A DNA stretch of 64,000 nt, taken from assembly GCF_018122735.1 (NCBI RefSeq), contig NZ_JAGRRD010000001.1, positions 2,125,262 through 2,189,261 on the forward strand. Direction: 5' to 3'. This DNA comes from Azoarcus sp. L1K30. Its GTDB lineage: Bacteria; Pseudomonadota; Gammaproteobacteria; Burkholderiales; Rhodocyclaceae. The notes beneath the pieces are model-generated. The model had not been told where the DNA came from. It saw only the letters and a list, made by a program, of their open reading frames with translations, and did no database searches. A program made the translations under genes and the position numbers. Positions 16,977 through 21,848 of this stretch are shown here, piece after piece (the first letter of the stretch is position 1; each line of letters begins with the position of its first letter).

Positions 16977-19900
16977 TCAGCGCGGCATCATTCGAACCCG
17001 CCCCATCTCGGCCAACGCACGCGGCATGCCGAGATGATAGCCTTGGCCATAATCGACACCGATCTCGCGCAGAACCTCGAGCACGTCGGCACTCTCGACA
17101 AACTCCGCAATCGTGACCAGCCCCATGGTGTGACCAATAGTGTTGATTGCCTGCACCATGGCACGGTTGATCGGATCGGTCGCGATATCGCGCACGAAGG
17201 CGCCGTCGATCTTCAGATAATCAACCGGCAGGGTCTTCAGGTAGGCGAACGAAGACAGGCCGCTGCCGAAATCGTCGAGAGCGAACGAACACCCCAACGT
17301 ACGCAGTTCGCCGATGAAGTTCACGACCCGCGACAGGTTTGCAACGGCCGAACTCTCCGTAATCTCGAAGCACAACGCGCCGTGCGGCAAGGCGGCGCGG
17401 GCCAGCCCGGTGCGGATCTGCGTCAGCAGCCCCTCGTCGCTCAGGGAGTTGCCCGACAGATTGATGCACCAGGTTCCTTCTATCCGGCCCTCCTTGCGGT
17501 AGGTATCACTCACCCAGGCAAGCACGTTGCGGAAGACCCACTCATCGATTCGCGGCATCAGGTTGTAGCGTTCCGCGGCGGGGATGAAGCTGCCCGGGCT
17601 GATCAGGCGCCCGTCCTCCTCCAGCCTCACCAGTACCTCGTAATGGATGGCCTGCGCCGCGGACAGCGGCACGATAGGCTGCACGAACAGACGCAGCCGG
17701 TCTTCGTCGAGTGCGCCATGCAGCCGCGCCACCCACTGCATCTGGCCATGCCGTTCCATCAGTTGGTCGTCGTCTGGACGATACACGTGCACCCGATTGC
17801 GCCCACCCTCCTTGGCCGCATAACAGGCGGTATCGGCCGCCGACAGGATGCGCCCGATCTCGCGATCTGAGTCGGTCACCGGTACCAGGCCGATGCTGAC
17901 GCCGATGGAAAACGACTTGCCCTCCCACGCAAAGCGGTAGGCGCGAATCGCTTCGCGAAAACCTTCGGCCATCTCGAGCGCCTTGTCCACCGGGCAGTTG
18001 AAGAAGATGACGCCGAACTCGTCGCCGCCCAGACGTGCGAGCAGATCGGCTGCGCGCATGCGTTCGCGCATCAGGGTGCACACCTGGCGCAACAGCTCGT
18101 CACCGGCCACGTGACCGCAGGTGTCGTTCACGACCTTGAATTGATCGAGATCGAGATAGCACAGCGTGTGCGTGCCCCCCGGCGGAACACCCGGGATCAG
18201 CAGCTCGGAGAGTCGCCGCTCGAATTCGCGCCGGTTGGGGATGCCGGTCAGCGCATCATGACTGGCCTGACGGGTCAGCTCGCGGGTGAGATTCAACGTG
18301 ACGGTCACGTCCTGGCAGACCAGTACCACGCCGATCAGATAGCCCAGGCGATTGCGGATCGGCGCGGCCGAATCCTGCACCGGCACGCGCTCGCCATCCC
18401 GCCTCACCAGCAGTCCATGGTCCATCGCCCGCGTTTCACGCCCCTGGACCAGCACCGCGCGCACCGGATTCTCCAGCGCGCGCCCGCTGCCCTCCTCCTC
18501 GAGACGGTAGATGGTGGCGATGTTGCGCCCGCGCGCCTCTTCCGCCGACCACCCGGTAAGGCTTTCAGCCATCGGATTCAGATACTGCACGATGCCGGCT
18601 TCATCGGTCGTGATCACGCCGTCACCAATGGACGCCAGGGTCACCTGCGCCAGATCGCGCTCGCGTTGCAGTTGCTCGGCAATGTGGCGCTGCTCGGTGA
18701 CGTCGCGCATCAATCCGGTATATACCGTTTCGCCGTTCGCCCGCCCCTCACTCACCGAGACCTCCAGAACACGTTGCGCCCTGCCACGGCGATGCAGGCG
18801 CAATTCAACATTCTCCTGCACCCCCATCAAGCGCTCGACCTGCCGGTCCGGCCTCAGTGGCGAGTCACCTAGCAGGCTGGCCAGCGGCCGCCCCACCGCG
18901 GCCACGCCCTGGACTTCGAGCAACTTTTCCGCCCCCGGATTGAGACTGCGCAAGAGTCCGTCCGCGCCGAAGGTGACGATGCCATCACGGGCATCGCGGA
19001 TGATCGCCCGCGTCTGTTCAACCGCGCGTTCGAGCGCCTCCATCATGCGGTTGTAGGCGCTGGCGATCTGCCCCACCTCGGTGAATGGCTCCACCGGCAC
19101 CCGTACCGTCAGCTCCCCGGTCCGCTCCTGGGTCTCCATGGCCTGCAGCAACTCGAGCAACTCGGTGCGTGCGCCATGCTCGGAGACATTGAGCCCAAGA
19201 GCTTCGTCGTCCGCCGTCACCCGCAAGGGGATCAGGCGGTCCACGCCGTGCAGCAGCACCCAGGCCATGCCGAAGGACCACAGGCCGCAACTGACGACTC
19301 CCACCAGTTGCACCACGAACTGCTCTCCTCGCCCGAGTCCGGTTCCAAGCGCAAGCGGATCGCCGAACAGCGCGACTGCCAGCGTCCCCCATATGCCTGC
19401 AGCCAGGTGCGCCGGAATGGCCCCCACGGCGTCATCGATACGGTATCTGAGCAACAACTCATGGCACAGCAACATCACCACCGCGCCGACTGCGCCGACA
19501 ATCAGCGCGTCGCCCGAGCCCAGCACATGCGCCCCGGCGGTCACCGCCACCAGACCGGCAATCCCGCCATTGAGCGTCTGAATCACGTCGGCATAGCCGC
19601 GCAGCCGCCATCCCATCGCCAGACCGGCAAGCACACCGGCCACGCCCGCAAGCACGGTATTGACCAGGATGCCAGGCACCCGCCCATCGAGGGCCAGCGT
19701 GCTGCCGCCGTTGAAGCCGAGCCAGCCGAACAGCAGCAGCATCACTCCCAGCATGGCCATCGGCAGATTGCCGCCCGAAATGGACTGAACGCGATCGTCG
19801 GCATCGAACCGGCCGCTACGTGGGCCGATAATCAGGATGCCGGCCAGGGCCACCCAGCCGCCGACACTGTGCACGACTGTAGAGCCGGCGAAGTCGACGA

Positions 19901-20369
19901 ATCCGAGCGTGGCCAGCCAGCCGCGCTCGCCGCCGAGCGCGCCACCCCACGCCCAATGCCCGAATACTGGATAAATGAGCCCACCGATGATCGCGGCCAC
20001 CGCAAGGTAGGCGGAGAAGCGCATGCGCTCGGCCACCGCCCCCGAGACGATGGTTGCTGCCGTCGAGCAGAACATGGCCTGGAACAGGAAGAATGCCGCG
20101 AGCGAATTGCTAGCGCCATGCCCCACCGAAACCATGAAGCGGTCTGTGCCCACCAGCCCCAGGGCAGACGCGCCGAACATCAGCGCGAAGCCGAAGCCCC
20201 AGTAGAGAACAACGGCAACGGCGAAATCGACCACGTTCTTGATGGCCACATTGATCGCATTGCGACTGCGGGTCAGGCCCGACTCAAGGCACAGGAAACC
20301 CGCCTGCATCAGGAACACCAGGCCGGCACACAGCACCACCCACATTACATCGATGTCTACCGCACTCAT
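16977..20369 (-). CDS. Ammonium transporter fused to PAS-PAS-GGDEF-EAL
   Basis: 1130-residue fusion. Residues 1-380 form an Amt/MEP/Rh channel of about 11 membrane helices. The key residues are kept: the Phe gate at 100, Asp159 and the twin histidines His167 and His321. Amt-like tail DDEALGLNVSEHG (387-399) follows, then a HAMP-like helix pair (about 405-450) and PAS domains at about 455-560 and 572-690. The GGDEF domain has GGDEF at 781-785 and I-site RAAD at 772-775. In the EAL domain the signature reads EVL (911-913), and the catalytic set is kept: Asn970, EITES, DDFG 1032-1035, KID 1053-1055, Glu1089. ATG 20369 opens directly on the Amt domain. A candidate NtrC site lies at 20427-20443. 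Inference: an ammonium-responsive protein controlling c-di-GMP. Whether it transports, synthesises or degrades is not decidable from sequence. Confidence 0.95.
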   Translation of the reverse strand: MSAVDIDVMWVVLCAGLVFLMQAGFLCLESGLTRSRNAINVAIKNVVDFAVAVVLYWGFGFALMFGASALGLVGTDRFMVSVGHGASNSLAAFFLFQAMFCSTAATIVSGAVAERMRFSAYLAVAAIIGGLIYPVFGHWAWGGALGGERGWLATLGFVDFAGSTVVHSVGGWVALAGILIIGPRSGRFDADDRVQSISGGNLPMAMLGVMLLLFGWLGFNGGSTLALDGRVPGILVNTVLAGVAGVLAGLAMGWRLRGYADVIQTLNGGIAGLVAVTAGAHVLGSGDALIVGAVGAVVMLLCHELLLRYRIDDAVGAIPAHLAAGIWGTLAVALFGDPLALGTGLGRGEQFVVQLVGVVSCGLWSFGMAWVLLHGVDRLIPLRVTADDEALGLNVSEHGARTELLELLQAMETQERTGELTVRVPVEPFTEVGQIASAYNRMMEALERAVEQTRAIIRDARDGIVTFGADGLLRSLNPGAEKLLEVQGVAAVGRPLASLLGDSPLRPDRQVERLMGVQENVELRLHRRGRAQRVLEVSVSEGRANGETVYTGLMRDVTEQRHIAEQLQRERDLAQVTLASIGDGVITTDEAGIVQYLNPMAESLTGWSAEEARGRNIATIYRLEEEGSGRALENPVRAVLVQGRETRAMDHGLLVRRDGERVPVQDSAAPIRNRLGYLIGVVLVCQDVTVTLNLTRELTRQASHDALTGIPNRREFERRLSELLIPGVPPGGTHTLCYLDLDQFKVVNDTCGHVAGDELLRQVCTLMRERMRAADLLARLGGDEFGVIFFNCPVDKALEMAEGFREAIRAYRFAWEGKSFSIGVSIGLVPVTDSDREIGRILSAADTACYAAKEGGRNRVHVYRPDDDQLMERHGQMQWVARLHGALDEDRLRLFVQPIVPLSAAQAIHYEVLVRLEEDGRLISPGSFIPAAERYNLMPRIDEWVFRNVLAWVSDTYRKEGRIEGTWCINLSGNSLSDEGLLTQIRTGLARAALPHGALCFEITESSAVANLSRVVNFIGELRTLGCSFALDDFGSGLSSFAYLKTLPVDYLKIDGAFVRDIATDPINRAMVQAINTIGHTMGLVTIAEFVESADVLEVLREIGVDYGQGYHLGMPRALAEMGRVRMMPR

Positions 20370-20426: not shown

Positions 20427-20443
20427 TGCACCACAATGATGCA
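20427..20443 (-). promoter_or_regulatory. NtrC-like binding dyad
   Basis: The plus strand reads TGCACCA-CAA-TGATGCA. The classical NtrC core is GCACCA-N3-TGGTGC, and 11 of 12 bases match with correct spacing. It lies 58 bases before the fusion ATG. Functional binding is inferred. Confidence 0.5.
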
Positions 20444-20489
20444 TCCATCCGGCGCACGAAAGATACTTGCGACTGCCGTGGCGCAACCA

Positions 20490-20503
20490 GCAAGAACAAT
20501 GCC
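20490..20503 (-). promoter_or_regulatory. Possible sigma-54 -24/-12 element
   Basis: The minus strand reads CGGCATTGTTCTTGCT, giving GG-N10-GC with a good TTGC half and an imperfect TGGCAC half. It would place the start site upstream of the NtrC dyad, an unusual order, so this is weak. Confidence 0.3.
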
Positions 20504-20645
20504 GCACCCGCCACCACCGCGGAGCGGACGCGGCATGATCGGCACTTCAAGGTCTGCAGCGGCAACCTCCACCGGGCAATTCGCACAGATGCCCTCTGGC
20601 GGCGATGACCTCGGTGACGGGAAAGGCCAACAACGGCCAGCCAAT

Positions 20646-21548
20646 CTAGCGATCGACACCCGATGAATAGAGCGCCAGCTTGCTCAGCCGCGCCTTGAGA
20701 AAGGCCACCAGCAAATGCACTTTCGGCGCCAGATGCCGACGCTGCGGATAGAGCGCCCACACCGCGGCGCCGGGCGGCGCATGTTGCGGAAGCAGACTCC
20801 GCAGCCCACCCGTTTCCAGGTGCTCGTAGACGTAATAATCAGGCAACTGACACAGACCGAAGCCCTGCAACGCCGCATCGAGTACGGCCTTTCCGCTGTT
20901 GCAGCGCCAGTTTCCGCTCACGCGCACCAGAGTCTCCTTGCCGTCGGCGACAAACGCCCAGTGCTCGGAAGTCCCGACCAGACAGTTGTGCTGATCGAGG
21001 TCGTTCAGCGCTCGGGGCGTCCCGTGCCGTTCGAGATACGATGGCGCAGCGCACAGATACAACCGCCGCGGAGCCAATCGCGTGGCCACCAGACGGGATT
21101 CGGGAACGTGGCCCAGGCGCACGGCCAGGTCAAACCCGTCCTGGACGATATCCCGCGGTTGGTTGCTCAACTCGATGTTGACCGACAATGCGGGGAAGGA
21201 CGACATGAACTCATTGACCAGCGGCACGACAAAGCGCTCGCCGTAGGCAACGGCGCAGGTCATCCTGAGCAGACCCTTGGGCGTACTCCCCAGATCCTGA
21301 ATCACGCGCAGCGCTTCGTCGAGCCCGTCCTGAAGCTGGCTGCAGTGGCGCAGGAAGATCTGTCCGGTGTCGGTCAGCGTGACCTGGCGCGTGCTGCGAT
21401 AGAACAGCCTGGCCTGCAGCCGCTCCTCCAGACGCGACACGCTGCGGCTGACGTGAGAGGTCGACACCCCGAGCGCGGCCGCTGCCGCGGTAAAGCTTCC
21501 GCCTTCAGCGACCGCGACAAATTCCTCCAGCCCTTCCCAACGTTTCAC
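20646..21548 (-). CDS. LysR-family transcriptional regulator
   Basis: LysR-type regulator of 300 residues. The N-terminal HTH covers residues 1-60 (GLEEFVAVAEGGSFTAAAAA, then STSHVSRSVSRLEERLQARL), followed by the effector-binding domain. The GTG at 21548 with GGAG ten bases upstream is preferred, because it opens directly on the HTH; the frame is open 33 codons further but that stretch looks non-coding. The orientation is divergent from xthA across 300 bases. Its target is not obvious: no oxidoreductase or transporter gene flanks it directly. The downstream neighbour on the same strand is the ammonium-transporter fusion after 276 bases. A dyad with the T-N11-A pattern lies 54-72 bases upstream of its start. 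Confidence 0.92.
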   Translation of the reverse strand: MKRWEGLEEFVAVAEGGSFTAAAAALGVSTSHVSRSVSRLEERLQARLFYRSTRQVTLTDTGQIFLRHCSQLQDGLDEALRVIQDLGSTPKGLLRMTCAVAYGERFVVPLVNEFMSSFPALSVNIELSNQPRDIVQDGFDLAVRLGHVPESRLVATRLAPRRLYLCAAPSYLERHGTPRALNDLDQHNCLVGTSEHWAFVADGKETLVRVSGNWRCNSGKAVLDAALQGFGLCQLPDYYVYEHLETGGLRSLLPQHAPPGAAVWALYPQRRHLAPKVHLLVAFLKARLSKLALYSSGVDR

Positions 21549-21848
21549 GCCCGCTCCACTATTGCCCCTAGGCAAACATCTATTCGAACCATGCCGATTA
21601 TGATTCAGAACGGCGGAATCCATCGCCCTCGGAACAACACAGAACACCGATCCGGCCCAATAGCCCCGGTACCCGATCGGCTATCCGGCTGGTAAGCAGC
21701 GGGCACGGATGGGACAATGCGCACCGGCCATGGCTGGATGCGATACCGGACCCGTATGGCGCAAGCCAATCGCCGGATCCGTTGCCAAGGTGATGGAAAC
21801 CGCCAGAATGATGAATCTCCGTAATGCCGTCCGCGAGCAACGAACAAC
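21549..21848. other. Intergenic region between LysR and xthA
   Basis: 300 bases, divergent. Apart from the T-N11-A dyad at 21602-21620 I see no strong promoter, hairpin or reading frame with coding character. Confidence 0.5.
21602..21620 (-). promoter_or_regulatory. Candidate LysR operator (T-N11-A dyad)
   Basis: Dyad GATTC-N9-GAATC containing T-N11-A, 54-72 bases upstream of the LysR GTG. Its position suits autoregulation. Short dyads of this kind occur by chance, so confidence is low. Confidence 0.3.

Follow-up and report, generated by a model that had tools for sequence, protein, structure and literature searches.

A probable ammonium receptor joined to a c-di-GMP enzyme in Azoarcus sp. 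L1K30, and a residue mark shared by output-fused Amt modules

Does an ammonium channel that is built into the same polypeptide as an enzyme of cyclic diguanylate (c-di-GMP) turnover carry ammonium, sense it, or both? The question is raised by a gene in a 64,000-nucleotide stretch of the Azoarcus sp. L1K30 genome (contig NZ_JAGRRD010000001.1, positions 2,125,262 to 2,189,261; hereafter the window, to which all coordinates refer unless another locus is named), where a protein of 1130 residues with the order Amt-HAMP-PAS-PAS-GGDEF-EAL is encoded on the minus strand at 16977..20369. An earlier note on this DNA described the Amt part as looking transport-competent rather than vestigial and proposed that ammonium is read directly as a change in c-di-GMP. 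The second proposal is supported here as the likely design, the first is not: the fusion protein is likely to be an ammonium receptor of the Sd-Amt1/Ks-Amt5 kind, probably non-transporting, that would control a bifunctional c-di-GMP enzyme of the RbdA type. The basis of this reading is domain order, residues, conservation, purifying selection and kinship, from which ammonium binding, loss of transport, the coupling path and its direction are inferred.

The gene is a single open frame from an ATG at 20369 to 16977, and the plus-strand translation of the same interval contains stops; together with the Pfam domains, this confirms that the whole domain order lies in one polypeptide. An alternative in-frame GTG at 20507 is the less likely start because promoter-like elements fall between it and the ATG and an orthologue (L052) has no earlier in-frame start. 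The Amt module (residues 9-401, 19167..20345, minus strand as are all features of the gene) is matched by Pfam PF00909 at 2.9e-111, and its closest solved chains are those of Sd-Amt1 (8qj3, 8qj4, 8qpf) and then Ks-Amt5 (6eu6). It is followed by a HAMP-like two-helix linker (residues 403-458, 18996..19163), by PAS1 (about residues 456-560, 18690..19004, placed in window numbering with a local PAS model on orthologues), by PAS2 (residues 577-689, 18303..18641, Pfam) and, as delimited by Pfam, by the GGDEF (702-859, 17793..18266) and EAL (882-1116, 17022..17726) domains. The two PAS stretches of the protein are found with two of the Pfam PAS models.

The closest relative of the N-terminal part is a protein already presented as a receptor. 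The Amt-HAMP part aligns with Sd-Amt1 of Shewanella denitrificans through residue 447 (E 1e-126); the 8qj3 and 8qj4 structures are titled "Receptor Sd-Amt1" in the OFF and ON state, and the fusion model matches them at TMt 0.94 and 0.93 in a fold search. All seven residues of the intramembrane NH4+ site, A42 and N394 are shared by the two proteins; Sd-Amt1 has 644 residues, whereas the fusion protein adds two PAS, a GGDEF and an EAL domain behind the HAMP-like linker. The output of Sd-Amt1 is reportedly a diguanylate cyclase, and a second stretch matched against its chain would fit a cyclase output. Ks-Amt5 from Candidatus Kuenenia stuttgartiensis is also a receptor-type Amt and shares the two-ion NH4+ site, the pore residues and the N394 equivalent, but it has a histidine-kinase output and no HAMP (PMC5764959).

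The residues on which the claim of transport competence was based (F100, D159, H167, F219, H321) are all present. However, the full pore set F100, W141, D159, H167, F219, S223 and H321 (FWDHFSH) is identical in the fusion protein, Sd-Amt1, Ks-Amt5, E. coli AmtB, Af-Amt1 and the three other Amts of the L1K30 genome, and it is nearly invariant in all aligned Amt groups. Since Ks-Amt5 keeps these residues and yet has lost transport by electrophysiology (PMC5764959), they cannot show competence and were discarded as proof of it; the receptor-type changes of the module point the opposite way. The equivalents of the Ks-Amt5 NH4+ site lie mainly in the TM1-TM2 stretch of the first two transmembrane helices (20223..20306), which holds Q22, E29, N45, D48 and F49 along with the receptor-type Ala42, and the site is completed by T106 and S109 (20043..20054). 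These letters (QENDFTS) fit the receptor-type pattern Q, E, N, D, T/F, T, T/S and equal those of Sd-Amt1 at 7/7 positions and those of Ks-Amt5 at 5/7; elsewhere in the same genome the glnK-linked Amts read AYVVFAV (L001) and AYTVFAV (L002), and an unfused Amt reads HEIDFAS (L004). Among 85 readable fused rows, 82 keep Q, E, N and D together and the remaining three are altered at D48, a count in which the frequency of N45 is inflated because the best 80 loci were partly picked by a pattern that contains N45.

The cleanest switch between fused and unfused modules was found at position 394, within the C-terminal-region motif E389xxG392xN394 (19188..19205), where transporters have ExxGxD. The fusion protein keeps R383, E389 and G392, has Asn in place of the Asp and lacks the C-terminal Tyr, and so departs from the transporter set of Arg, Glu, Gly, Asp and Tyr. 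These five residues have been called universally conserved in Amt proteins, and ExxGxD mutants are inactive; the Asp touches TM2 at its N-terminal end, with a possible stabilising effect on the open state, while the Tyr bonds a His of the third intracellular loop (PMC4852598). Exchange of Asp for Asn may loosen the hold of the C-terminal region on the open state, and because the fusion protein lacks both the Asp and the Tyr that transporters link to the open channel, its transport is probably lost or small.

The switch was identified by comparing alignment columns between 73 fused rows (of 87, with 14 near-copies or fragments dropped) and 41 unfused rows picked from 51. In a first count, Asn was present in 86/86 readable fused rows (L111 is gapped) and Asp in 47 of the 51 rows first called unfused; the other four, three with Asn and one with Thr, all fall inside the fused clade and were set apart only after the tree and the residues had been seen. 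One of these four, L094_8537, carries a SpoIIE domain in a Pfam scan. The corrected count is therefore Asn in 87/87 readable fused rows against 47 Asp, two Asn (L128, L158) and one Thr (L137) in 50 unfused rows, with near-copies (12 Pelagibacteraceae rows and the pair L066/L156) included. L128, L137 and L158 lie in the fused clade without a recognised output, and L128 extends at its C-terminus by about 160 residues that match no Pfam model. A second set, split by open-frame length alone, gave Asn in 20/20 frames of at least 700 residues and Asp in all 37 shorter ones (33/33 under 560 residues and 4/4 between), although about 17 of the long rows are new (L178 equals L210, and L165 and L168 repeat earlier rows) and most came from profile A1, in which Asn is already present. 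Two further columns behave similarly: position 42 is Ala in 84/85 fused against 1/47 unfused rows, and in the four set-apart rows, and the C-terminal Tyr is absent from 83/85 fused rows and present in 45/46 unfused rows long enough to judge. In the portions of the literature covered on Ks-Amt5 and the ExxGxD motif, a scope outside which the Sd-Amt1 structure paper falls, no mention of Asn at this position was found, nor did a search on the motif return anything on bacterial sensor Amts.

Combined, these features suggest a path for the signal. In the receptor reading, NH4+ would pass the outer selectivity filter and lodge in the intramembrane site formed by Q22, E29, N45, D48, T106 and S109; the bound ion would shift TM2, which abuts the C-terminal region at its cytoplasmic end, with Ala42 beside ExxGxN; and the shift would travel via the HAMP-like helices and the two PAS domains to alter the GGDEF-EAL pairing, giving a new balance of c-di-GMP synthesis and hydrolysis. 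By analogy with Sd-Amt1, we lean weakly towards ammonium favouring synthesis. If external ammonium is read directly as c-di-GMP in this way, nitrogen supply would be coupled to biofilm, motility or exopolysaccharide, bypassing the cytoplasmic PII route.

Four observations weigh against this reading. The QEND residues also occur in 24/29 unfused rows without glnK in the fetched stretch, a status judged for 12 of the 29 from about 1.5 kb per side (less at one contig end), and in 3/16 glnK-linked rows outside the L1K30 genome; the site is thus not receptor-specific, and as the sole mark of a receptor it was ruled out because unfused relatives keep it. The bulky pore residues of Ks-Amt5, F27/Y30/F34, are only partly matched (F25, L28 and L32 in the fusion protein), so that pore blockage by the Ks-Amt5 route is not shown. 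The HAMP match (417-447) falls under the Pfam cut-off at 20.1 against 25 bits, and the linker helices modelled by AlphaFold2 (403-417 and 431-458) are of low confidence, although the alignment with Sd-Amt1 extends over this region and the model gives it two helices; the model as a whole (13 sequences) has a mean pLDDT of 80 and a pTM of 0.44, and its domain placement is therefore not trusted. Finally, the fused Amts are essentially a single clade, so that N394 may go back to one ancient event and not to repeated selection.

A rival that is compatible with ammonium sensing concerns the output half. The PAS2-GGDEF-EAL part (residues 563-1118) has as its closest solved relative RbdA/PA0861 of Pseudomonas aeruginosa (5xgb; E 1.5e-173, about 51% identity in a structural alignment), whose solved chain is PAS-GGDEF-EAL only, while the fusion protein places Amt, the HAMP-like linker and PAS1 in front. 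The GGDEF motif (781-785) and the I-site R772xxD775, the latter already reported by the earlier note, are intact, and the EAL motif is an EVL variant with all checked catalytic residues present; the features of RbdA-type enzymes (GGDEF motif, I-site, EAL catalytic residues) are thus all found. A GGDEF-EAL construct of RbdA had phosphodiesterase but no cyclase activity (PMC7825114), and RbdA has been grouped with hybrids in which GGDEF, otherwise inactive, controls the EAL half by binding GTP, with GTP on the GGDEF half reported to release the EAL half (PMC9061725). The fusion protein could likewise be mainly a phosphodiesterase, with GGDEF as a GTP-binding allosteric switch and Amt-PAS only tuning hydrolysis; we hold this to be a real possibility, though the less probable one. 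It is countered by the longer RbdA construct with PAS, which showed cyclase and GTP-enhanced phosphodiesterase activity (PMC7825114), and by conservation across 35 Amt-GGDEF-EAL proteins, of which all keep the GGDEF motif and 31 the I-site pair; in the same set the first Glu of the EAL motif is kept in 35/35, its Leu in 30/35 and each other checked EAL residue in 34 or 35. A dual c-di-GMP enzyme is expected.

A true transceptor, with an Amt part that remains a transporter and a c-di-GMP response to flux instead of static binding, could draw on the seven pore residues kept and on AmtE of Azoarcus olearius BH72, a protein with an N-terminal ammonium transporter and GGDEF/EAL that was called a likely "transceptor" on its domain content (PMC8467165). 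AmtE is likened to the fusion protein by description, not by sequence, and PAS is unmentioned for it in the part of that source covered. Against flux stand the same pore residues in non-transporting Ks-Amt5, the change of ExxGxD to ExxGxN with loss of the C-terminal Tyr, and the lack of glnK in the window, in the orthologue stretches L049-L058 and in the fetched stretch of every fused locus scanned (glnK, a common though not invariable neighbour of assimilatory Amt transporters, is present at the L001 and L002 amt loci of the same genome); we consider the transceptor unlikely. Still less probable is a protein in which the actual sensing is done by the PAS domains, with Amt serving only to anchor the enzyme at the membrane and concentrate it there: there are two PAS domains, and PAS1 is on the whole the fastest-evolving part, but the NH4+ site and the receptor signature are kept in clade members without a detected PAS.

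A sequencing or assembly merge or a decayed gene, the first of which the earlier note had named as what would overturn its reading, has practically no probability left, because the frame recurs with the same domain order in 10 of 296 other genomes sampled from the family and the ratio of nonsynonymous to synonymous substitution rates against four genus orthologues is 0.045-0.23 in every domain, as expected of purifying selection. The family search matched 12/297 genomes at 1e-75 (own included), with a long frame in 11 and an unfused Amt in one (G028). One orthologue frame, at L055 761-5185, has 1474 residues, with about 340 extra in-frame residues ahead of the Amt start that overlap a predicted opposite-strand exonuclease gene and are probably a start-codon artefact.

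The earlier note had also taken a c-di-GMP version of such fusions to be much rarer than histidine-kinase versions, a view that does not hold up, and had allowed that close relatives might already be on record, as they are. Across the class, a search of 369 genomes (own included; module query, E 1e-85), whose yield is a lower bound, returned 15 output-fused Amt loci in 14/368 genomes outside L1K30. Their outputs by Pfam are six PAS-GGDEF-EAL (with two PAS by the local model), two GGDEF-EAL, one GGDEF, three histidine kinases and three chemotaxis receptors. Among the best 80 loci of a scan of named genomes, a sample from a collection in which records close to L1K30 may be absent, at least six further PAS-PAS-GGDEF-EAL proteins were seen (Vreelandella twice, Halochromatium, Marinobacter, Marinobacterium and Pseudomonas neustonica). 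With the ON/OFF structures of Sd-Amt1, the description of AmtE and a review noting further Amt fusions (PMC10433425), the Amt-output architecture itself is already known; the added interest comes from the receptor mark and from the range of outputs that stand behind it.

That breadth was placed on a quick tree of 124 Amt modules, in which the fused rows fall in one group of 77 rows that includes the fusion protein (support of 91 in the Shimodaira-Hasegawa-like approximate likelihood ratio test, SH-aLRT). When the signature columns and two long rows were left out, the smallest clade with all 72 fused rows held 76 rows (support 80). On the 124-module tree the c-di-GMP label alone needs seven changes, at least four of them by well-supported branches, and outputs swap repeatedly within the fused group; the Asn mark may thus have arisen once, long ago, and been retained while outputs were exchanged, with moderate tree support. 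Outputs recognised by Pfam comprise histidine kinases, chemotaxis receptors, GGDEF/EAL, a SpoIIE-type phosphatase (L084, L094 twice, L099) and a class III cyclase (L089); the SpoIIE label of the other Pelagibacteraceae rows was given by likeness and the remaining labels by small local models. We see about an even chance that one ancient receptor-form Amt (ExxGxN, Ala at the start of TM2, C-terminal Tyr lost) has served as a portable ammonium sensor ahead of at least five kinds of output (histidine kinases, GGDEF/EAL, chemotaxis receptors, SpoIIE-type phosphatases and a class III nucleotide cyclase), the Asp to Asn change releasing the C-terminal region from its part in keeping the pore open, which would let movement of TM2 drive the output. 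If true, receptors and transporters would be separable by sequence even where the output is nameless, and which Amts sense and which transport would become a one-residue test. By this mark, ammonium receptors are predicted for Pelagibacteraceae, cyanobacteria, spirochaetes and other groups, and some of them have outputs that the literature covered does not discuss.

Several members of the group deserve separate mention. In Pelagibacteraceae, a receptor-type Amt is joined to a SpoIIE-type phosphatase at L094 (5965-8115 and 8537-10774, two such genes close together), L097-L099, L104-L106, L108, L109, L118 and L120. A Leptospiraceae metagenome-assembled genome (MAG) has a receptor-type Amt with a class III adenylate/guanylate cyclase domain (L089 3464-5533), and a Chloroflexi MAG has two tandem Amt-hybrid-kinase genes (L085 6001-12646). 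Amt modules with chemotaxis-receptor domains occur at L068, L070, L071 and L146 by Pfam and at L113, L114, L121, L125-L127, L134 and L140 by the local model; these are candidate ammonium chemoreceptors, and a search on Amt with chemotaxis receptors returned nothing to the point in the literature covered.

The neighbourhood of the fusion gene showed no link to nitrogen genes in L049-L056 or in 21 loci outside that group. Around the gene in L049-L056 there are matches to the M3 peptidase, glutaredoxin, xth, crp and ksgA genes of the window, although L053 lacked matches to several of these and L055 to the peptidase; of the 21 other loci only L091 matched one window neighbour, the peptidase. Just upstream, a LysR-type gene (20646-21647) has no match in the fetched stretches of L049-L056.

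The upstream region holds a sigma54-type -24/-12-like element, CGGCATTGTTCTTGCT (20489..20504, minus strand), 135 bases upstream of the ATG, and 61 bases downstream of it a dyad, TGCATCATTGTGGTGCA (20427..20443, minus strand), resembling TGCACC-N5-GGTGCA. The dyad is NtrC-like as judged by the general consensus, and its regulator is unproven; its position downstream of the element is odd. The two lie 60-61 bases apart in 8/11 family sequences (the window, L049, L050, L051, L053, L054, L055 and L056; p 0.003 or less against 1000 shuffles each, for a spacing noticed before the test), and the pairing was not found in L052, L057 and L058, in the last two of which a better sigma54 match, with a dyad on its upstream side, stands closer to the gene. 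Only this fixed spacing is striking: the best sigma54-like match alone gave single-sequence p values of 0.003 to 0.33 across the 11 sequences, and a first consensus scan with up to three mismatches was at chance level (115 found, 128 expected). Across the genome, the element pattern occurs once, though it was drawn from the fusion-gene site itself, a looser joint pattern occurs twice, and 23 copies of the dyad pattern were counted, compared with 5 of a reversed control.

Controls at other loci were mixed, and NtrC was therefore not retained as a proven regulator of the fusion gene: the two glnK-amt loci of the genome have no good dyad (best matches 9/12 and 8/12), though L161 has a sigma54-like match of 11/12, while L162, upstream of the unfused L004 (about C1:2523160-2523280), has a dyad at 11/12, 100 bases upstream of a sigma54-like match at 10/12, in the usual enhancer-promoter order. 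Nitrogen control of the fusion gene, although unproven, would fit the L004 promoter and the 36-fold induction of AmtE in A. olearius BH72 under N2-fixing conditions (PMC8467165). Elsewhere in the genome, a tandem pair of dyads (L222 1824-1861; C1:9823-9860) is flanked by a sugar transferase gene on one side and a Wza-type export gene on the other, and because these are genes of exopolysaccharide type, the regulator of the dyad may also touch exopolysaccharide.

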